Source: Zhongshania marina (lineage in GTDB: Bacteria > Pseudomonadota > Gammaproteobacteria > Pseudomonadales > Spongiibacteraceae). From it: a stretch of 64,000 nt of DNA. Numbering within the stretch: position 1 is the stretch's first letter; the number at the start of each line of letters is the position of its first letter. The stretch lies in the NCBI RefSeq assembly GCF_002915595.1, contig NZ_PQGG01000002.1:62001-126000 (forward strand). The letters are read 5' to 3'. The notes under the pieces are model-generated. The model was given only the letters and a program-made list of their open reading frames with translations, did not search any database and was not told the DNA's origin. A program made the position numbers and the translations under genes. This document shows positions 8,620 to 19,222 of this stretch, piece by piece.

Positions 8620-10833
8620 ATGAAGGCCACCACCCAACAGCGTTTTCAGCCACTAACAATGGCCGCCATTGCATTCGTACTTGGCAGCCCCAGCCTACTC
8701 GCCCAAGAGCAGGCGACGGCGAAAATGGAAAACGTACAGGTCATTGCAAAGCGCGTGGTAAAACGTAATCACGTGAATAGCCCTTCGCCAAAATTGGTGT
8801 ACGACGCCGATTTCTTCCAACTCTTTGAACCGATTTCTGTTGGTGACATGCTCAAGCGGGTTCCCGGTGTTAGTTTTAATAGTGATGTTGGTGAATACGA
8901 TCTTCCCCGCCTGCGCGGCTTAGATTCTCGCTACACTCAGGTGCTTATCAATGGCCGCCGCCTCCCAGGTGAAGAAAACAGCGGCGCGATTGCGGTAGAT
9001 CGAATTCCCGCAGAGATGGTCGAAAAAATAGAAATCATCCGCAGCCCCAGCAGTGACATCAGCAGCCAAGGTATTGGTGGCACCCTAAATATTATTCTCA
9101 AGGACGGCGCCCGACACGAAGGCGGAATCTGGCGCGTAGGCGTTGTTAATATGGAAGAAAATCGCGGTAGCGGTTTTGTCGGTATGTCCGGTGTTAGCGA
9201 TAAAATCGAATACGGTTTTTCAGTCAACATTCAAGAGCGCTACAACCCAAAGAGCAAGACCTCCAGCGAACAAGAGGAAGATGAGCGCGAAGACATTATT
9301 GAAAGTGATGTGCGCGACAGCCGCGATGTCGCCTTTGCTGCCGATGTTGCGTTTCAGTTAGGCGAGAAAAGTAAATTACGCCTAAATCTTCTGCACATTG
9401 ATACCGAGCGTGAAGAAAAAGAAAATACTCGAGTCACCGCACTTGAACGCGCCGATAGTTCATCGCCATTCGCGATTGATGAAATTGCTCTAGAGAATCA
9501 GTTAGAAGACATCGACCAAAGCAACACCAGTCTCGGCATAGATTACGAACTTGCCACAGCCAGCGGCGAATTAAACGTCTACGCCAGCACGCATCAATTT
9601 AAGCAAGACAAACGCGAAACAAATTTTGAAGCAGACTTAGGGGACCCACTCGAATTAGACGCACAAGAATTAACTGATATCGACGACACCGAAGACCGCA
9701 TTGGCTTTAGCTGGAAACGTGAATCAGCTAATAGTGAATCTAAGCTGGGCTTAGAATACGTCAGCAAAACCCGTGATTTTAATCTTAAGGCGTTGGATGA
9801 CAACGGCGATCTTGATGAGGAAAATGACGAATTCGCCGATTTTAGCGTCGATGATAAAGGCTTTAACGCATTCGCCAGTAACAGCTGGAAACTGCGTGAA
9901 GATTTAGAATTAGAGCTCGGCCTGCGCGCAGAGTATCGCGACGTAGACATAGTCGGCAGAGACTTCGATGGCAATATTAGTCGCAGCAATAATGACAGCA
10001 TCGACTACAACCCCTCAGCGCATATTCGCTGGCACCTAAACGAGAACGAGCAATTTCGCGCCAGTATTGCCCGCACCCTTCGCCGCCCACAGTTCGACCA
10101 ACTCAATCCCGTCGAACTGACCATAGACGATGAGAAATTTCGTGGAAATAGCGATTTAGATCCAGAGAGCGCCATCGGTATCGACCTTGGCTACGATCAC
10201 TTCATTGCCGACAGCGGTGTGATCGGCATTAACTTTTTCTATCGCGAAGTGGAGGATTTAATTGAGTATCGCCAAACCGACATTACCGTTGGCGGAACAG
10301 ATTTTGAACTGCGTCAAGCAATCAACAATCGCAACACCGGCAAGGTTATGGGTGTTGAATTGGATTTCAGCGCGCCAATGACGCTAATAAACCTGCCATC
10401 TGCACAGGCGTTTTTCAATCTCACACTATTGGATTCTGAAGTTGAAGACGACTATTTTGAAGGTGTGAAAAGACGATTCAGCGGACAAGCAAAATATGTT
10501 TACAACCTAGGCTTTGAACACGAACTTGCAGCGCTACAAGCTAGCTACGGCCTCAGCTATCAAAAGCAAGGTGACAGCGAGGAATTTGAAGGTAATGAAA
10601 TTAATCGCATACGCTACGACGGCAATTTAGAAGTATTTATTGAAAAGCGCTTTGATAATGGCAACTACGCGCTGCGTCTGTCTGGTCAAAATTTGCTAGA
10701 CGCCGAAAAGAATGAGCTTATTCGCAAATACGATGACACCGCAGCACTGCGCGCTGGACAGTTCGAATCAACAGAGACCGAAATCGAACACACCTCGCCA
10801 GCTATTTTGCTCACACTGCGCGGTAGCTTTTAA
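8620..10833 (+). CDS. TonB-dependent receptor, probable phytate/organophosphate uptake
   Basis: 737-residue outer-membrane receptor. A signal peptide (about 1-28, ending LLAQ) is followed by the plug domain (SVGDMLKRVPGVSFNSD, LPRLRGLDSRYTQVLINGRRLPG, IEIIRSPSSDISSQGIGGTLNIILKDG) and a 22-strand-type barrel ending ILLTLRGSF with a terminal Phe. The barrel is rich in acidic loop residues. The beta-propeller phytase follows 72 bp later, and a Pho box precedes it, so uptake of phytate or a breakdown product is the best guess. Linkage of beta-propeller phytases with TonB receptors is known in aquatic bacteria. GAGGAA is a good ribosome site before the ATG. Confidence 0.88.
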   Translation: MKATTQQRFQPLTMAAIAFVLGSPSLLAQEQATAKMENVQVIAKRVVKRNHVNSPSPKLVYDADFFQLFEPISVGDMLKRVPGVSFNSDVGEYDLPRLRGLDSRYTQVLINGRRLPGEENSGAIAVDRIPAEMVEKIEIIRSPSSDISSQGIGGTLNIILKDGARHEGGIWRVGVVNMEENRGSGFVGMSGVSDKIEYGFSVNIQERYNPKSKTSSEQEEDEREDIIESDVRDSRDVAFAADVAFQLGEKSKLRLNLLHIDTEREEKENTRVTALERADSSSPFAIDEIALENQLEDIDQSNTSLGIDYELATASGELNVYASTHQFKQDKRETNFEADLGDPLELDAQELTDIDDTEDRIGFSWKRESANSESKLGLEYVSKTRDFNLKALDDNGDLDEENDEFADFSVDDKGFNAFASNSWKLREDLELELGLRAEYRDVDIVGRDFDGNISRSNNDSIDYNPSAHIRWHLNENEQFRASIARTLRRPQFDQLNPVELTIDDEKFRGNSDLDPESAIGIDLGYDHFIADSGVIGINFFYREVEDLIEYRQTDITVGGTDFELRQAINNRNTGKVMGVELDFSAPMTLINLPSAQAFFNLTLLDSEVEDDYFEGVKRRFSGQAKYVYNLGFEHELAALQASYGLSYQKQGDSEEFEGNEINRIRYDGNLEVFIEKRFDNGNYALRLSGQNLLDAEKNELIRKYDDTAALRAGQFESTETEIEHTSPAILLTLRGSF

Positions 10834-10905
10834 GCAAGCCTATTCTGAATTGCAATGGCAGGCTGATTGAGCAGCCTGCGACATTTACTCTATTTTGGAA
10901 TTTTT

Positions 10906-12459
10906 ATGAATACATTTGGAAAATTTATACTCGCCGGCACGCTACTCGCTACTAGCGCCTGCTCCCAGCTAAGCAGCGTAAAAAACATCAATACAAATAT
11001 GCTAAGTTTTAATAAGCAGCATATTTTTGACACTGACAAAACCATTTATAGCAGCCAAAACGAGATTGAAGCCGCCGCAAAATCCGGCGATTGGCTGATT
11101 TGGGTAGAAGACCCACGGCGTGAATTATGGATGGCCTCGCTAAGCTACAACGAGCTTGCTCCAAAAAAAATCGCCACCCTAGAGCATGGTGTAGACGGCC
11201 TTTGCGCTGCGCCGTTATCTGACTCTGCGTTAGACCTGTTTATTAGTGATGGTGATGGCGGCATGCACCACTACTGGCTGAATCCACAAAGCGGACAATT
11301 TCACTCTGTACGCAGCCTTACGATCAATCCCGATGTAGAACGCTGCCTACTGAATGAATCCTCATTAATCTATTTGGATCCATACCTAGGTGCGATGAGT
11401 ATCGACCGCGACCCTGAAACCGATACGGTAATTCGCACCGCCAATATTACGGCTAACCGCGAACTTATCGGCCAGCTTTCAGCTGCAGCTGAATCCCAAA
11501 TACTTGAATACGCTGTTTCCGCCCCGCGAGCGCCATTCCCACTGATTAGTGCCGATCTAGAAACTGACTCGGTTGACCGCGCCGGCGACGCTGCCGACGA
11601 CCCTGCCATTATGATTTCTCATAAAGGCACATTGTGGATTGCTGGCACAGACAAGCAGCAAGGCCTTCGCGTGTACGACGCCCAAGGGAAGCAAATTCAC
11701 TTTCTTAATCGCGGTCGCTTAAATAATGTCGATAGTCTTGCCTTAACGAGCGAGCGATTTTTACTCTCTGCTACCAATCGCACAAGCCACAGTATTGATT
11801 TATTTATTGCCGAGCCAGATAAGAATCGTATCGAGTTCATCTCTGCTATACCGCTGACTATGGATGACCCCTATGGTTTGTGCATGGCGAAAGACGCCAG
11901 CGGCAAAGTCGCCATTTTTGCCGGTGATTCAGAAGGTCTGGTGCAATACTGGCAGTTAAATAGCGATTATCTCGGCGGCAAAATGTTGTCGGAATACCGC
12001 TTTGATTCACAAACCGAAGGCTGTGTTTACAACACCCTAGATCACCACCTCTACGTTGGCCAAGAAGATAACGGTATTTGGAAAATCGATCCGAGTAATG
12101 GCAACAGAGAGCTAATCGAGGCGATAAGCCAAGGCAATCTTATTGCCGATGTTGAAGGATTAGATATTTACTACGGCGAACAAAGCTACTTAATCGCCTC
12201 TAGCCAGGGTGACGACAGCTATGTGGTTTACCAACTTGCCCCGTGGAAGATGCTAAGTAAATTTCGTATTGGCCCCAATACCGACAAGGGGCTAGACGGC
12301 GCATCGGAAACCGACGGCCTCGCGGTAAGCTCGCAAGCAATAGGCGCTTACCCCCAGGGCATATTAGTCGTACAAGATGGCCGGAACAGGAGCCCAGCGG
12401 CGAATCAAAATTTTAAACTTATTGACTGGCGTAAAGTTGAAAACTTACTAAAAAATTAG
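10906..12459 (+). CDS. Beta-propeller phytase lipoprotein
   Basis: 517-residue calcium-type phytase (myo-inositol hexakisphosphate phosphohydrolase) of the six-bladed beta-propeller family. Family blocks visible: DDPAIMISHKGTLWIAGTDKQQGLRVYDAQGKQ, RLNNVDSL, DPYGLCMAKD, QTEGCVYNTLDHHLYVGQEDNGIW, ADVEGLDIYY, YLIASSQGDDSYVVYQ, and near the end ETDGLAVSS and QDGRNRSPAANQNFKLIDW. An extra 200-residue N-terminal part looks like a second, divergent propeller, as in dual-domain phytases. I take the ATG at 10906, not the upstream in-frame TTG at 10867, because GGAA is spaced five bases before it and the protein then starts with a lipoprotein signal (cysteine about residue 20, TSAC). It is the second gene of the Pho-box operon and ends at a strong terminator. 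Confidence 0.9.
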   Translation: MNTFGKFILAGTLLATSACSQLSSVKNINTNMLSFNKQHIFDTDKTIYSSQNEIEAAAKSGDWLIWVEDPRRELWMASLSYNELAPKKIATLEHGVDGLCAAPLSDSALDLFISDGDGGMHHYWLNPQSGQFHSVRSLTINPDVERCLLNESSLIYLDPYLGAMSIDRDPETDTVIRTANITANRELIGQLSAAAESQILEYAVSAPRAPFPLISADLETDSVDRAGDAADDPAIMISHKGTLWIAGTDKQQGLRVYDAQGKQIHFLNRGRLNNVDSLALTSERFLLSATNRTSHSIDLFIAEPDKNRIEFISAIPLTMDDPYGLCMAKDASGKVAIFAGDSEGLVQYWQLNSDYLGGKMLSEYRFDSQTEGCVYNTLDHHLYVGQEDNGIWKIDPSNGNRELIEAISQGNLIADVEGLDIYYGEQSYLIASSQGDDSYVVYQLAPWKMLSKFRIGPNTDKGLDGASETDGLAVSSQAIGAYPQGILVVQDGRNRSPAANQNFKLIDWRKVENLLKN

Positions 12460-12568: not shown

Positions 12569-13810
12569 TCAATCCTTAAATTTATATTTAATCGGCAGTG
12601 AATTTAAGCCACTCACAAAATGGCTGGGGATGTAAGTCGGTTCACCGTTAAACTCAATACCTTGCAACTGGGGTAGGAGCAAGCGGAAAAACGTTTCTAT
12701 CTCCATTCTCGCTAAGTGCATACCCAGGCAGTTATGACGCCCGTGGCCAAAGGCCAGATGTTTGCTACCCTTACGGCTCACGTCAAACACCTCTGGTCGA
12801 TCAATTGCCGAGGCATCGCGGTTCGCAGATTCAAAGAACATAGCAACGGTATCGCCCTTTTTAAGACTCACACCACTTAATTCAGTATCCGCAAGTACGG
12901 TGCGGGCAAAATGCTTAACTGGCGTTACCCAGCGAATGCATTCGTCTGCAGCTGTCGCGTATAGCGTCGGGTCATCAAGCAAGGCGTTACGCTGCTCAGG
13001 AAATTGAATAAGTGCCTGCAGGCCACCGGCAATACTGGCACTGGTCGTATCGTGCCCCGCAGTAGCGAGCAGTACGAAATAGGATGTAAGCGTAAAGGGG
13101 TCTATCAATTCGCCATTAAGTTTGGCATTGGCTAGCACACTGGCAATATCATCTTTTGGCGTGGCTCTGCGACCCTCAGCTAATGCAGTAAAGTAGTCTG
13201 CCATTGCCTGCACACATTCCATAAACACCGTCATCGCGTCTTTTTCTTCCGTCGCGAAACCTTCTGGCGCAAACAGCTGCTGGGTTAATTGCAGAATATG
13301 CGCTTCGTCTTGTTCTGGTATACCAATAAGCTGCAAAATAACTCGCAGCGGATACCAAAATGCAATGTCACTTGCAAAGTCGCACTCGCCGCCCTTGTCT
13401 TTCATACGCGTAATAAAACTTTCTGCTAGCTCCGCAACATGGCCGCGCATTTTGGCAATATTGGCGGGCATAAACCAATCACGGGTAATTTTACGCAGCG
13501 CCATATGTTGTTCACCGTCCATGTGAACAAGGGTTTTTACCCCCATAATATCGCCGAAGCGGGCCTGATTCATTTCTTCTAAGGCTTGTAAAATTAACAC
13601 CGCGCGAGGCTCGGCACTAAACAACTCGGGTGTCGATTCTATATAGCGAATATCCTCATAGCGGCTAATCGCCCAGAATGGCCGAACATCGTCGGGTTCA
13701 ATCAGGCAAATTGGCCTATGCTCTCGCAACTCCGCAAGCTTGGCGCTAATGTCTGCGGGCCTTGTATATGACATGGCGTCGCTAAGAATTGAGTCACTGA
13801 TATTGCTCAT
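12569..13810 (-). CDS. Cytochrome P450, CYP108-like
   Basis: 413-residue soluble bacterial class I P450 mono-oxygenase. Visible: I-helix ATAGHDTTSAS (Asp254-Thr255), ExxR at 290-293 (ECIR), the block RWVTPVKHFARTVLADTELSGVSLKKGD, and the haem-thiolate loop HLAFGHGRHNCLGMHLAR with Cys361. The region around the I-helix, VTPVKHFARTVLADTEL and the C-terminus resemble P450terp (CYP108), a terpineol hydroxylase, so a terpenoid or other alicyclic substrate is plausible, not proven. No ferredoxin or reductase gene is adjacent. It is the last gene after the TonB receptor (16-bp gap) and the RoxA-like cytochrome, forming one transcription unit. Confidence 0.92.
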   Translation of the reverse strand: MSNISDSILSDAMSYTRPADISAKLAELREHRPICLIEPDDVRPFWAISRYEDIRYIESTPELFSAEPRAVLILQALEEMNQARFGDIMGVKTLVHMDGEQHMALRKITRDWFMPANIAKMRGHVAELAESFITRMKDKGGECDFASDIAFWYPLRVILQLIGIPEQDEAHILQLTQQLFAPEGFATEEKDAMTVFMECVQAMADYFTALAEGRRATPKDDIASVLANAKLNGELIDPFTLTSYFVLLATAGHDTTSASIAGGLQALIQFPEQRNALLDDPTLYATAADECIRWVTPVKHFARTVLADTELSGVSLKKGDTVAMFFESANRDASAIDRPEVFDVSRKGSKHLAFGHGRHNCLGMHLARMEIETFFRLLLPQLQGIEFNGEPTYIPSHFVSGLNSLPIKYKFKD

Positions 13811-13826
13811 AATTATTTCCTTTGAA

Positions 13827-16253
13827 CTACAAATTCGCTTTTATGCTTAAGCCTAATTGCCGTGGCTCGTTTAAGTAAGCGTTAAAGGACCCCTTCTGCA
13901 CCGGCATAGCAAAATAGATGGTTCGGTAGCTCACATCGCTACAGTTTTTACAGAAAAAACTAACATCAATTTCTTTGTCACCAAAGTAACGCAATCCAAA
14001 CGATAAGTCCCACAAAGTATACGGTCCTTGGGTGGGTTCATCTGGCGTGTCTGGACTGGCCCAATGCTCACCGCTATAAGAAGCAGAGATACGTCCATAA
14101 CCACCCAGCGTCGGAGTAATTGGCTGCTCGTAGGTGGCAATGGCAACCGCTGATAGATCTGGTGCCCTCGGTGTTTGGCGACCATCTAAGTGACGCACCG
14201 CTTCCGGCGCATCACCTAAGTCTGAAAACTCGGCCTCTAACCACGTAACACTCAACTCGGTACGCAGACGATCGGTGACCTGCACGGTATTTTCAATCTC
14301 AATACCACGGGAGGTCGCTTCACCGGTATTTTGAGTGAAGAAGTTAAATCCATTAAAAAAGTTAATCTGCAAATTTTCGTAAAGGGTATCGAAAACTGCA
14401 ATATTCGTTTGCGCGCGATTATCCCAATAGCGCGTTTTTAAACCTAGCTCCCAGCTCGTTGCGTACTCGGGGTCGTAGGTGGTGTTTTGCAGGTTTGCGG
14501 CTTCTTGAAACAAATTTACCGCACCGGCTTTATAGCCCTTACTAAAGGTGACATAGCCCATAATGTCGTCATTGAATTCGTATTGACCCGACACCGTACT
14601 GGTCAAAACGCTGCTTGAATACTTGTCATAAAAGCTCGGAGAATTATAAATAGTGTTTAAATCCAGCGCGTTTCTCGGCGTGCTTAAATCTCCTGTTGGC
14701 GCTGCCCCAACCAAACCAGAGGCAACAATCAGCTGTGCTAATTCTGAGTTATACCAGTAAATTTGATCGTAGCCACCGTCTTTGCGGTCTTGGCTATAGC
14801 GCATGCCGGCAACCAAGGTAAAGCCGTTATCAAAGTGGGTTTGGGTGTGAATAAACGCGGCCGCGCTGCTTGCATCTTGATAGTAGTGATCTTCAATAAT
14901 TCGCTCACCCGCCGTCGCTGGAAATAGATCAAAGGACTGAATACCCAACGGTGCGCCTATCATGCTCAGCAATGCAGTACATCCCAGCGACATGCCCGGT
15001 GGTCTACATACTGGCGCGGTATTTACATTCAAACCGAGCAGCTCAGTAATCGCCTTGGTGGTGAGGAAACTTGCGTAATTATTCGAATCAGTATCTGAAA
15101 CAAAGCTGCGATCACTTTCATAAGTCTCATGGGAATAATACAAACCAGCAACCACGTCTACCGGGCCAACCGAGGTGCTAAAGTTTAATTCCTGCGACCA
15201 AAAATCGATTTTACTGGGCTCGTTAAGTACCAATATATGGGCGGGACCGAAGTCAGCATCGCCATTGCGCTGCTCATCTTTAAACTGTCGCACACCGGTT
15301 ACCGAGCTGATATCGACACTCTCTAAGGCCCAGTTAAGCTTCCAACTTACACCGATATCCTCGCGAAATTCCTGCGAACGGGCATTGTTATTAGAAAGAC
15401 GCTGGTCTTCAGCAATATCATCGGTATAAAAATCAAGGCCACGTAGGTTTGCATAGTAAGTCAAATCGTCAGTAAGCGGCCCACTAACAACCTGCACACT
15501 ACCCCAGCAACAAGCAGCGTCGGATTTGGCGTAATCCAAAATAAGCCAAGACTCCAAATTATCACTTAATTCAGCAAGCCACTGGAATTTTCCGCTAAGG
15601 CGATCTGTTTGATTATAGGTGCGATCATCCTGCTGACGACTGCGATAGAAGCCATCCTGACGGTTGCTGACAAGGGATAACCGAATCGCGTTATTATCGT
15701 CCAAGGGCATATTAAATGCCGTAGAGAAATACTGCTTATTGTAGCTACCTACAACAATCTCTGAGCTATTACTAAACTCATCAAAGTTTGGTTTCATACT
15801 GCTTAAGGACAAAGCCCCCGCCACGGTATTCTTACCAAACAGCGTTCCCTGTGGTCCGCGCAATAACTCTAGGCCGCCTATGTCGTTCATGTCTTGCAAG
15901 GCCATTGCCGAACGCGAACGATAAACCCCGTCTACAAATACCCCAACGGCGCCTTCAAAGGTTCGGCCATTGCCGACGGTGCCAATACCACGAATTTTCA
16001 AACTGGAATTTTGCGAGCTTTGACCGGTATCAAAACTAATACTTGGGTTGACGTCGGTAAGGTCTGATGCGTCAAACACGCCGGCAGAGCGCATATCCTC
16101 TGCAGACATTGCGGTAATCGCAATTGGTACTTCCTGAGCACTTTGGCTACGCTTTTGGGCCGTGACTACGACCTCTTCTAATTCGGCAGATATGACTGGC
16201 ATGGCATTCAACGCCAATACCATCGCTACAATTCTCTGTGCTCGAAAGCCCAT
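13827..16253 (-). CDS. TonB-dependent receptor (hydrophobic-substrate type)
   Basis: 808-residue outer-membrane receptor. Signal peptide about 1-23, then TonB box-like region LEEVVVTAQKRSQSAQEVPIAI, plug domain (LTDVNPSISFD, LKIRGIGTVGNG, GVFVDGVYRSR, LELLRGPQGTLFGKNTVAGALSLSSMKP), and a barrel ending in LGLSIKANL. The opening VVVTAQKR...AQEVPIAITAMS is the class common in sphingomonads and marine gammaproteobacteria, often linked to uptake of hydrophobic or aromatic molecules. It sits between the RoxA-like cytochrome (112-bp gap) and the P450 (16-bp gap), which suggests import of the cleavage products made outside the cell (inference). Confidence 0.88.
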   Translation of the reverse strand: MGFRAQRIVAMVLALNAMPVISAELEEVVVTAQKRSQSAQEVPIAITAMSAEDMRSAGVFDASDLTDVNPSISFDTGQSSQNSSLKIRGIGTVGNGRTFEGAVGVFVDGVYRSRSAMALQDMNDIGGLELLRGPQGTLFGKNTVAGALSLSSMKPNFDEFSNSSEIVVGSYNKQYFSTAFNMPLDDNNAIRLSLVSNRQDGFYRSRQQDDRTYNQTDRLSGKFQWLAELSDNLESWLILDYAKSDAACCWGSVQVVSGPLTDDLTYYANLRGLDFYTDDIAEDQRLSNNNARSQEFREDIGVSWKLNWALESVDISSVTGVRQFKDEQRNGDADFGPAHILVLNEPSKIDFWSQELNFSTSVGPVDVVAGLYYSHETYESDRSFVSDTDSNNYASFLTTKAITELLGLNVNTAPVCRPPGMSLGCTALLSMIGAPLGIQSFDLFPATAGERIIEDHYYQDASSAAAFIHTQTHFDNGFTLVAGMRYSQDRKDGGYDQIYWYNSELAQLIVASGLVGAAPTGDLSTPRNALDLNTIYNSPSFYDKYSSSVLTSTVSGQYEFNDDIMGYVTFSKGYKAGAVNLFQEAANLQNTTYDPEYATSWELGLKTRYWDNRAQTNIAVFDTLYENLQINFFNGFNFFTQNTGEATSRGIEIENTVQVTDRLRTELSVTWLEAEFSDLGDAPEAVRHLDGRQTPRAPDLSAVAIATYEQPITPTLGGYGRISASYSGEHWASPDTPDEPTQGPYTLWDLSFGLRYFGDKEIDVSFFCKNCSDVSYRTIYFAMPVQKGSFNAYLNEPRQLGLSIKANL

Positions 16254-16365
16254 TGTGACGTCCTCTTCTCATTCGGCGACTGCAATATTTGCGCATTATT
16301 ATTCGTTAAAGCAGGCAGCCTAAGATAGTTAATAGCTGCCTGAATCCGCTTGTAGACGCCAGTCC

Positions 16366-18462
16366 TTATAAGGTTTTTAAATACTCTATAATTGCGCGCC
16401 GCTCGGCGTCAGTCAGCACGCTGGTAAATTCGTGGCCGCTATTTCCCTGGCTATAAAGCTTGGTGTTATAAATTTTCCGCTCTTCAATTTGCTGGTTCGT
16501 GGCGATAGGCACATTGATCAAATTCCACGCCAAACCACCATTCCCCCACAGCACTGACAATGCGTCCTGTAGGCTTGCGCCATTTGGATCAAGTGGATTG
16601 CAATCTATACCAGGTGTGACCACCCCAATAAGCGGTATAGGTAAACCCGAGCCGCATTCCACCGTGTCGTAACGCCAGCCAATTTTTTCTGCGTCATATC
16701 CAGTCTTTAAGCTGTAGTCAAAGCCCATCACGACCTTACCGGCTAAATCTGCTGGTGCATCAATAGAGCGACGACGCCATATTGCCGGCCGCGTGGCTGG
16801 ATTTAAGACGCTTTCAATATCTGGTACCGAACCATTGTGAAAATACGGCGCAGTTGCCCACACCCCATAGAGTGGCGGCGCTAAATAGCCTAAGTCGCGA
16901 TCTCCGCGTAGCGACTCATCAGCCCAGTCACCACACAGAGAAACACCATCGTCATTAAAGGGGCCATCTGAATAGGCAAACCAGTTGTTTCTCGAATACT
17001 CTGCGACCCGCTGAGAGTTGCCGTTTAAGCGCGCTGGATCGGTATTGATAATATCGATAGGGGTAATATATGCCGCTATACCTTCCAACAAGGGCGAATC
17101 TAAGTAAGCACTGTCATTTACATAACGGGGCGAATACGCACCGTGGCAGCTTGCACAAGAGCCATTGCCCCCCTCAGGACGCGCTACCGGATTATTCAAA
17201 CTCGGTGCCCACAGGTCTTTCGCGTGGAACAACACTGCCCCCGCCTCAGCTAAATTTGTGTCAACCTCACCCAAGGCCGAGGCAGGCCAAACCGGCGATT
17301 TTAATGAGCTTATCCACGCGTCACCATCTTGCTGATTGTCTAATACCCACTGCTTTGCCGCCTCAATGTCATTGAAGAAATCAGGAAAATGGAATGACAA
17401 TTCAATGCGTTTGGAATCGACAACCTGACCGCCGTCATAAAACTTGGCGGTACGACTTCCCACATTCCACCAAACCGGTGGATCTTCGGTGCCGGTTGAG
17501 GGCTCGCCCTGTATGGTGAGGTAAGACGGAATAGTTTCGTAATCGGCGAGGGTCAAGACCCCAAAAAGCTGAAAGTTGGTGATATTGCCGGTACCACGCA
17601 CTTTATTCTGCGAAATAATCGCCAATGCGGCTTGCTGAGGTGCAAGGCGCGTCAGCTCAGAAAACATCACCGTAATATCACTCAAGCTATTGGTGCCATA
17701 CATCGGCCCCATACCCTCGGCCTCATCGGCCAGCCCGACCGCACCGCCATGACAAATACTGCAGGTCACATTGAGCTGCCCTGTCCACGTTCCATCTGCT
17801 TTACGAAGCTGAGTTATACCCATTGGTAGCTGGCCACTGCCGCCATTATTTGCGTTCGGGTCTTCACCAGGCAAAGGGTAGGGATTGCGAACCGTCGACA
17901 AGGGCATTCCCCAACGCTGAGCAACTAGCTCGTCGTACTGCGCGGGGCGCTCACTCAAGCCCCACACAGACTTCCACATTTCAGCGTAGGCATCTGCAGG
18001 AAAGGAGTAAATCGACTCACTGGCATCGCCAGAAAAGAAACTCGCTGCGCCCGGCCGACCTTCAGCCGCAACCAATGCCAAACCGCGCTCTTCACGCTGA
18101 CGCAGCTCACCGCAATTTGCGGGTTGATTATCGTCTTGGCAGGTTTGCCACCAGGCATTCATCAACACCGCTTTATTTTCGTTTATCCCCGGCACCACCA
18201 TTTCACGGGGGTCGTCTGGAACCGGCGTGCTATCGGGTTTATTTTCACAGTAATCGTGCCAGTAATGCCCGCCGCGCCGACTTACCAGTAGTTCCTGCGA
18301 GACGGGGTTTGAACCAGAATCCACCCCGCCATTGCTGCCGCCACCATTATTGCCGCCATCTGTTAGTGGTGGTGGCTGCGTAGGGGGATTGCTTGATGAG
18401 CCGCCGCAGGCACTCAAAATCAACACGGAACTTGCCGTGATAAGAAATAGGAATTTTTTCAT
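16366..18462 (-). CDS. Dihaem c-type cytochrome lipoprotein, RoxA/RoxB-like
   Basis: Lipoprotein with signal MKKFLFLITASSVLILSAC (lipobox LSAC), a Gly/Asn/Ser linker, and two c-haem sites, CSICH and CASCH, about 202 residues apart. Rubber oxygenase RoxA has two CxxCH motifs with nearly the same spacing and similar length. Further similar blocks: PPVWWNVGSRTAKFYDGG, YLAPPLYGVWATAPYFHNGSVPDIESVL and the C-terminal LYSQGNSGHEFTSVLTDAERRAIIEYLKTL of the MauG/peroxidase superfamily. So an extracellular or periplasmic dihaem oxygenase or peroxidase acting on an unsaturated polymer or terpenoid is likely; the substrate is unproven. An in-frame ATG at 18483 is possible, but 18462 gives a proper lipoprotein signal. 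First gene of the unit with TonB receptor and P450; the TetR gene is divergent. Confidence 0.78.
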   Translation of the reverse strand: MKKFLFLITASSVLILSACGGSSSNPPTQPPPLTDGGNNGGGSNGGVDSGSNPVSQELLVSRRGGHYWHDYCENKPDSTPVPDDPREMVVPGINENKAVLMNAWWQTCQDDNQPANCGELRQREERGLALVAAEGRPGAASFFSGDASESIYSFPADAYAEMWKSVWGLSERPAQYDELVAQRWGMPLSTVRNPYPLPGEDPNANNGGSGQLPMGITQLRKADGTWTGQLNVTCSICHGGAVGLADEAEGMGPMYGTNSLSDITVMFSELTRLAPQQAALAIISQNKVRGTGNITNFQLFGVLTLADYETIPSYLTIQGEPSTGTEDPPVWWNVGSRTAKFYDGGQVVDSKRIELSFHFPDFFNDIEAAKQWVLDNQQDGDAWISSLKSPVWPASALGEVDTNLAEAGAVLFHAKDLWAPSLNNPVARPEGGNGSCASCHGAYSPRYVNDSAYLDSPLLEGIAAYITPIDIINTDPARLNGNSQRVAEYSRNNWFAYSDGPFNDDGVSLCGDWADESLRGDRDLGYLAPPLYGVWATAPYFHNGSVPDIESVLNPATRPAIWRRRSIDAPADLAGKVVMGFDYSLKTGYDAEKIGWRYDTVECGSGLPIPLIGVVTPGIDCNPLDPNGASLQDALSVLWGNGGLAWNLINVPIATNQQIEERKIYNTKLYSQGNSGHEFTSVLTDAERRAIIEYLKTL

Positions 18463-18515
18463 TGCTAGGCGGCCTCTCAGCATTTTTATTGTTATTTTGT
18501 CTTTTATAAAATTAA

Positions 18516-18556
18516 TGTACTTTTGTATGTTTTAGTAATTTGTACATTTGTATGTT
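18516..18556. promoter_or_regulatory. Tandem operator-like repeats between TetR gene and RoxA-like operon
   Basis: TGTACTTTTGTATGTT (18516-18531) and TGTACATTTGTATGTT (18541-18556) are direct repeats with one mismatch and a 25-bp period; each has a small internal dyad, TAC-n4-GTA. They fill the divergent intergenic region, as expected for sites of the neighbouring TetR regulator. Confidence 0.6.
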
Positions 18557-18576
18557 ATCTAAGTCAAGTGCTATGA

Positions 18577-18592
18577 TTCTGTCATGACAGAA
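18577..18592. repeat. 16-bp perfect palindrome over the TetR start codon
   Basis: TTCTGTCATGACAGAA is self-complementary and centred on the ATG at 18584. It could be an autoregulatory operator blocking translation or transcription start, but one such palindrome per 64 kb is expected by chance. Confidence 0.4.
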
Positions 18593-19222
18593 ATTACCGC
18601 TATCTCCTCATCCACCCCCGCCGCGAGATCACCGCAACAAGCCCGTGGTCGCCAGCGTTTTGAACGCATACTCGAAGCAGCCGAAGAACAGCTCATTCAA
18701 CGCGGTTTGAGCGACTTTTCTATTCCCGAGCTGGCATCGTCATTAACATGCACACGAACCAGCATCTACCATTTTTTTCCAACGCCATACGCCATTCTCA
18801 ATGAGCTAACGCGTCGGCACTTAATTACGCTGGAAGAAGAAGTAGAAAAGTTGAGCTACACAATAGAAGGGAAACCGTGGCAACAGGTTATTAGTGAGGT
18901 CGCCGATATCGTGGCCGATTACTACAACCAGCACCAAGCCGCCCGCATACTCATATTGGGCAGCGTGGCCAGCCACGAAAGTCATCAGGCTTTGCACCTG
19001 ACTATTTCGCATATTGGTCACCACGTAGATACCTTGATGCGAACTATCGGCGTGATCTTACCTAGCGACAACCCCGACGCGAAAGCACTGGTCGTCGAGC
19101 TCGGCACCGCCTGCTTGCGGCTTTCGTATTTTTTACACGGCGAAATCACCCCCGCCTATCGGCGTGAGTGCGCAGTTGCGATGATCGCCTACTTAGAACG
19201 CATTATTCAGCAAGAAGAATAA
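18584..19222 (+). CDS. TetR-family transcriptional regulator
   Basis: 212 residues. N-terminal TetR helix-turn-helix (about 24-72: RFERILEAAEEQLIQRGLSDFSIPELASSLTCTRTSIYHFFPTPYAILNELTRRHL) and a C-terminal all-helical ligand domain without a recognisable subfamily. It is transcribed away from the RoxA-like/TonB receptor/P450 operon across a 121-bp region holding two tandem repeats, so it most likely represses that operon and itself. It converges with ggpPS on its 3' side with only 13 bp between them. Confidence 0.88.
   Translation: MTEITAISSSTPAARSPQQARGRQRFERILEAAEEQLIQRGLSDFSIPELASSLTCTRTSIYHFFPTPYAILNELTRRHLITLEEEVEKLSYTIEGKPWQQVISEVADIVADYYNQHQAARILILGSVASHESHQALHLTISHIGHHVDTLMRTIGVILPSDNPDAKALVVELGTACLRLSYFLHGEITPAYRRECAVAMIAYLERIIQQEE

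Follow-up and report, generated by a model that had tools for sequence, protein, structure and literature searches.

For rubber degradation in Gram-negative bacteria, enzymes have been shown only for the first cut, and both uptake and the inner steps have been predicted from genomes (PMC5979037). The closest described enzymes are the exo-type RoxA (PDB 4b2n), the endo-type RoxB/LatA of Steroidobacter cummioxidans 35Y and Rhizobacter gummiphilus, and RoxC of Fontimonas and Oceanococcus. Their published signatures at the first haem motif and at positions 302 and 317 of RoxA are CSACH, W302 and F317 in RoxA; CHACH, Val and Phe in RoxB; and CFQCH, Phe and Ala in RoxC (PMC10837239). RoxC is a predicted lipoprotein whose function is still open (PMC10837239), and RoxCs, which carry Phe at the Trp302 position, showed no rubber activity in vitro (PMC10837239, citing unpublished data). 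RoxB-like genes of Zhongshania and Spongiibacter have already been listed in silico (PMC10731047).

Here we describe a rox operon of Zhongshania marina, whose genome is 4.13 Mb in size. The operon lies on contig C12, within an analysed stretch of 64,000 nucleotides (hereafter the window). With RoxC lipoproteins already predicted (PMC10837239) and RoxB-like genes from Zhongshania and Spongiibacter on record (PMC10731047), the Rox protein of this operon is a variant within an already known kind of enzyme, not a new kind. An earlier note on this DNA had pointed out that a lipoprotein form differs from secreted RoxA, which is correct, but the form as such is not new given the prediction for RoxC.

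Organization of the operon

The rox gene (16366-18462, minus strand, 698 aa) is followed by genes for a TonB-dependent outer-membrane receptor with plug and barrel (13827-16253, minus strand, 808 aa) and a CYP108-like cytochrome P450 (12569-13810, minus strand, 413 aa), and a gene for a TetR-family regulator (18584-19222, plus strand, 212 aa) diverges from rox. All four open reading frames lie where the earlier note had placed them. The gaps between rox and the receptor gene (112 bp) and between the receptor and P450 genes (16 bp) each contain a plausible ribosome-binding site (GAGGA and AAGGAA, respectively), consistent with a single transcript for the three genes. The closest named relatives are Z. 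aliphaticivorans and Z. aquimaris, whose Rox proteins match that of the window at 93% and 91%. A sequencing or annotation artefact is ruled out by the presence of the same genes in both of these species and in Spongiibacter.

The gap between rox and the receptor gene (16254-16365) also holds an inverted repeat, GGCAGC...GCTGCC, without a T-run, which is possibly an attenuator or a processing site. No RNA families were found within the window. Elsewhere in the window (8620-12459), a TonB receptor gene precedes a gene for a phytase-family (PF02333) protein. This pair is kept in Z. aliphaticivorans and is probably unrelated to the rox operon.

Assignment of the lipoprotein to the Rox superfamily

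Judged by its sequence and its modelled fold, the lipoprotein is a true member of the Rox superfamily. It is an acidic protein (pI 4.5) with a lipobox (LSAC-GG) in which residue 19 is the mature Cys, and its haem motifs, CSICH (residues 234-238) and CASCH (residues 436-440), are exactly 202 residues apart, where the earlier note had given about 202. The MauG-type C-terminus that had also been recognized there is represented by the motif PYFHNGSVP, which starts at residue 539. Against the NCBIfam RoxB equivalog, the protein scores 1001 bits (cut-off 900, E 2.5e-301) over 652 of 652 positions, and its scores fall below the cut-offs of the NCBIfam models for RoxC (626 bits), RoxA (450 bits, cut-off 1000) and CytoC_perox (120 bits, cut-off 150). 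The Pfam model RoxA-like_Cyt-c matches as well (E 4.5e-21), and the sole strong match in the PDB is RoxA 4b2n (E 1.4e-109).

An AlphaFold model of the protein (pLDDT 86.6, pTM 0.88) aligns with RoxA 4b2n over 579 residues (Z 36.1, 2.9 A, 38% identity in the structural alignment), compared with about 240 residues and Z values of at most 11.7 for peroxidases, MauG and hydrazine synthase. The marks of the superfamily are all present, namely a RoxA-like fold, two CxxCH motifs, the MauG motif and the distal His of the C-terminal haem, with His677 corresponding to RoxA H641. An ordinary dihaem peroxidase is ruled out by these sequence and fold comparisons. The earlier note had said that placement of the cytochrome among such peroxidases would overturn its reading, and this did not come true; the structure prediction and RoxA alignment that it had proposed returned a Rox fold in which the equivalent of the active-site Phe317 is kept. 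What requires adjustment is its description of the protein as RoxA-like: membership in the Rox superfamily and the match to the RoxA fold stand, but both the family model and the tree place the protein nearer to RoxB.

Active-site residues and phylogeny

Active-site residues were compared in RoxA numbering, anchored at H195, with reference residues taken from Table 1 of PMC10837239. The window Rox aligns without gaps to the 301-317 segment of RoxA, such that its F341, Y342, S356 and F357 correspond to RoxA F301, W302, A316 and F317. Throughout its clade, the oxygen-stabilizing Phe317 of RoxA is kept and Trp302 is replaced by Tyr or Phe. Homologues in this clade, from Spongiibacter, Solimonas, Stagnimonas, Stenotrophobium, Nevskia and Perlucidibaca, have a C[SN][IV]CH haem motif and F317, and their residue 302 is aromatic. 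Almost all of them carry a lipobox, and some have a third N-terminal haem.

These features set the protein apart from each of the described enzymes. With RoxA it shares the fold, the CSxCH form of haem 1, Phe317 and equivalents of H195, H394 and H641, but it lacks Trp302 and has a lipoprotein anchor. With RoxB, its best family model, it has two c haems and the Phe317 equivalent in common, and it is about 45% identical to RoxB-signature loci. However, RoxB is a plain Sec-secreted protein with CHACH and with Val at the Trp302 position, whereas the window Rox is a lipoprotein with CSICH and Tyr. RoxC likewise has a lipobox, an acidic pI and an aromatic residue at the Trp302 position, but its Ala at the Phe317 position and its CFQCH motif contrast with F357 and CSICH.

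In a tree of 93 sequences, from which the reference RoxB35Y is absent and in which the RoxB clade was picked out via published residues, the window clade (18 rows) forms one group with a support of 100. Approximately unbiased (AU) tests rejected the joining of this group with RoxC (p 1.5e-50) and also with RoxA (p 3e-4). Membership in RoxC of the Fth/Oat type is thus ruled out by both residues (CSICH, F357) and the AU test. Identity as RoxA is ruled out by the score below the NCBIfam cut-off and by the replacement of Trp302 with Tyr342, and the canonical RoxB clade (CH[AG]CH, Val302, non-lipoprotein) does not accommodate a protein that has CSICH, Tyr342 and a lipobox and sits in a clade of its own. 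On these sequence comparisons, the window clade is a separate lipoprotein branch that is not RoxA, canonical RoxB or RoxC, and a published third cluster of 243 sequences may contain it. Neither a RoxA nor a canonical RoxB was found in the Z. marina genome.

Linkage of rox with the P450 and receptor genes

The resemblance of the P450 to a terpineol hydroxylase, which the earlier note had proposed, is borne out by 39.6% identity to P450terp over 384 aligned residues, a value at the border of the CYP108 family, which is customarily drawn at a minimum of about 40% identity. The AGHDTT and haem-Cys motifs are common to the window P450, CYP108 (P450terp) and CYP108D1, but the window gene has no adjoining ferredoxin or terpene genes and lies downstream of rox. 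Steroid and branched-lipid hydroxylases (CYP125 and CYP124-type) are among the next matches. Siderophore receptors are only distantly similar to the window receptor.

Linkage was computed for 21 genomes of the same family, with a P450 counted at 66% identity or more. The P450 is present in 8 of the 11 genomes that carry rox and in none of the 10 that lack it (Fisher p 8e-4, uncorrected for kinship), and in 8 of 8 cases a rox gene lies no more than 2 kb away. The order rox-receptor-P450 is repeated in genomes G253 and G193, the order in G747 is receptor-P450-rox-rox, and in G213 the P450 gene is preceded by a different rox paralogue. Three close relatives (G124, G744 and G172) have rox and the P450 gene but no receptor gene, and no clear receptor remnant was found in loci L009 and L010. 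Because the receptor has been lost from these three genomes while rox and the P450 remain, the stable core within the family is rox-P450, and the case for the receptor as an essential part is weakened. Unlinked genes in relatives, which the earlier note had named as a second way for its reading to fail, did not come true: the P450 is linked to rox in all 8 family genomes that have it, although the receptor is missing from three. Outside the family, no P450 gene was seen beside rox in 22-kb Solimonas-type loci.

Predicted promoter and operator

The regulator has a TetR_N domain (33.1 bits, curated cut-off 24). Between tetR and rox there is a tandem 14-bp palindrome with the ideal form TGTACAnnTGTACA and copies 24-25 bp apart. 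In the window, predicted operator copy 1 (TGTACATTTGTATG; 18541-18554, unstranded) overlaps the rox -10 element, where relatives have TGTACAnnTGTACA, and copy 2 (TGTACTTTTGTATG; 18516-18529, unstranded) is 25 bp from copy 1. The predicted rox promoter (18539-18567, minus strand) comprises a -35 element, TTGACT (18562-18567), a 17-bp spacer and a -10 element, TACAAA (18539-18544); it was picked out by eye within the conserved region, and a generic promoter scan did not list it. The palindrome recurs at rox or P450 promoters in six relatives, behind a TTGAC box, and in these its proximal copy covers the predicted -10. This phylogenetic footprint makes it likely that the conserved tandem palindrome is the TetR operator. 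Genome-wide, the rox island holds all three exact matches in G253 and three of four in G193, and one of the four matches in the Z. marina genome is at the rox operon. The same genome-wide search found no palindrome at a second rox island, on contig C17.

The second rox island and downstream metabolism

The C17 island of Z. marina carries three more rox genes and two TonB receptor genes, together with genes for an acyl-CoA ligase, acyl-CoA dehydrogenases that include a pimC/pimD-like pair, an enoyl-CoA hydratase, a Zn alcohol dehydrogenase and an OYE-type flavoenzyme. Rox islands encode Zn/Fe alcohol dehydrogenases as well as acyl-CoA dehydrogenases that form heteromeric pairs. In Stenotrophobium, which belongs to another family, locus L014 has genes for an acyl-CoA dehydrogenase, a hydratase, two Rox proteins, TlpA and DUF3570 in a row; genes at this locus were taken only with a labelled match, as length-based calling gives spurious long open reading frames in GC-rich loci. 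We infer that the island genes fit the conversion of carbonyl fragments to acids and then beta-oxidation. The earlier note had seen a complete route in the window. Such a route is plausible but only partly supported; the window alone is incomplete, with the acyl-CoA genes residing in the C17 island.

One rox paralogue of the C17 island (L007:9514-11512) has a broken N-terminal part with the signal-peptide region in another frame, which represents a frameshift or an assembly error; its ortholog in G213 is intact. In other genomes, rox is amplified into islands of 35-55 kb (G193, C1:3513800-3548778, loci L141-L143; G253, C23:305558-359244, loci L137-L139) whose paralogues have several active-site signatures, and for most of these no published description was found. 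The G193 island (L142:15993-19266) also encodes a small two-CxxCH cytochrome and a molybdenum hydroxylase of the xanthine/aldehyde oxidase type, with Fe-S and Mo subunits, that is a candidate oxidizer of Rox-made aldehydes.

A possible flavin/thioredoxin relay near rox genes

Genes for a TlpA-like thioredoxin, DUF4266, DUF3570 and ApbE are situated among the rox genes of the C17 island (L007:11621-14497) and of related islands. DUF3570 has been described as flavinylated by ApbE and as found with thioredoxin-like and DUF4266 genes, with rubber unmentioned (PMC8238504), and none of the papers searched here brings DUF3570 and RoxA together. Within the family, 10 of 11 rox-positive genomes and 0 of 10 rox-negative ones carry a divergent type of DUF3570 (about 200 bits), which lies near rox each time. 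Among the 85 genomes of the order to which G317 belongs, 30 have rox, and 28 of these also have this DUF3570 type, compared with 5 of the 55 that lack rox (p 4e-15, uncorrected for kinship). In 21 of the 28, it lies no more than 25 kb from rox. Because the divergent DUF3570 co-occurs with rox in two orders, these data suggest that TlpA, DUF4266, DUF3570 and ApbE may serve as an electron supply for Rox lipoproteins. Perhaps the tethered Rox lipoproteins (the window clade and RoxC) form a distinct class of oxygenase that needs a dedicated extracytosolic relay, with the window operon as an inducible module that has its own receptor and P450. This tentative idea is somewhat doubtful, but, if it is true, dependence on the relay would account for isolated RoxC without activity.

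Proposed function and alternatives

We propose, with about an even prospect of being right, that the operon combines an outer-membrane Rox oxygenase that cleaves isoprenoids with uptake of the products and their oxidation by the P450. Anchored in the outer membrane and presumably exposed at the surface, the Rox protein would bind O2 at its N-terminal haem and cut a bulky, hydrophobic isoprenoid-type substrate (polyisoprene or long oligo-isoprenoids) at its C=C bonds. Oxidized fragments would travel inward via the TonB receptor, or via another receptor where this one has been lost, and would then be oxidized by the cytosolic CYP108-like P450. The resulting acids could enter steps catalysed by an acyl-CoA ligase, an acyl-CoA dehydrogenase and a hydratase, such as those encoded in the second rox island. 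TetR would occupy the tandem palindromes over the rox -10 and let go on arrival of a product or substrate, the presumed inducer.

This proposal is favoured by the full-length RoxB score, by RoxA being the sole strong match in fold and sequence, by the retention of F357 across the clade, by the P450-rox linkage and the conserved operator, and by the acyl-CoA, hydratase and flavoenzyme genes in rox islands. It is weakened by the change of Trp302 to Tyr or Phe, given that Phe is also found in RoxCs without rubber cleavage (PMC10837239), and by a genome without RoxA and canonical RoxB. It is weakened as well by a receptor that is only distantly siderophore-receptor-like and is missing in three relatives, and by acyl-CoA genes that lie on another contig without the operator.

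Perhaps the substrate is not a polymer but a small isoprenoid, terpenoid or steroid-like hydrocarbon, such as squalene, a carotenoid or side chains. The kinship of the P450 to P450terp, with CYP125 and CYP124-type enzymes among its next matches, would suit this rather unlikely possibility, as would the heteromeric acyl-CoA dehydrogenase pairs and Zn/Fe alcohol dehydrogenases of the islands and a marine genus without RoxA. However, a polymer-cleaving fold at the surface would be superfluous for small soluble terpenes, and the substrate of a P450 cannot be read from its family resemblance. We consider it distinctly unlikely that the lipoprotein oxidizes unsaturated fatty acids or other envelope lipids, as has been suggested for RoxC, with the P450 and receptor handling lipid products. 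Although the lipoprotein anchor and acidic pI of 4.5 recall RoxC (PMC10837239), as does the aromatic replacement of W302, acidity is unspecific in that RoxB-signature proteins are acidic too, Phe317 is kept where RoxC has Ala, and the tree rejects a grouping with RoxC. The acyl-CoA genes of rox islands would suit any acyl substrate, but lipid remodelling can do without a receptor and P450 of its own. It is very improbable that the protein acts as a MauG-like redox protein or dihaem peroxidase and not as an oxygenase: the extent of structural alignment with RoxA far exceeds that with peroxidases, and the Phe317 region and Rox-specific shell are kept, even though the wider fold group likewise has the MauG motif and two c haems and the flavin/thioredoxin relay that co-occurs with rox hints at electron input.

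With a Phe317-keeping Rox lipoprotein and a single receptor, P450 and repressor, the operon is a small and testable system for the steps that follow cleavage. In addition, the link between rox and the flavin relay offers a concrete way to test why lipoprotein Rox enzymes have seemed inactive.
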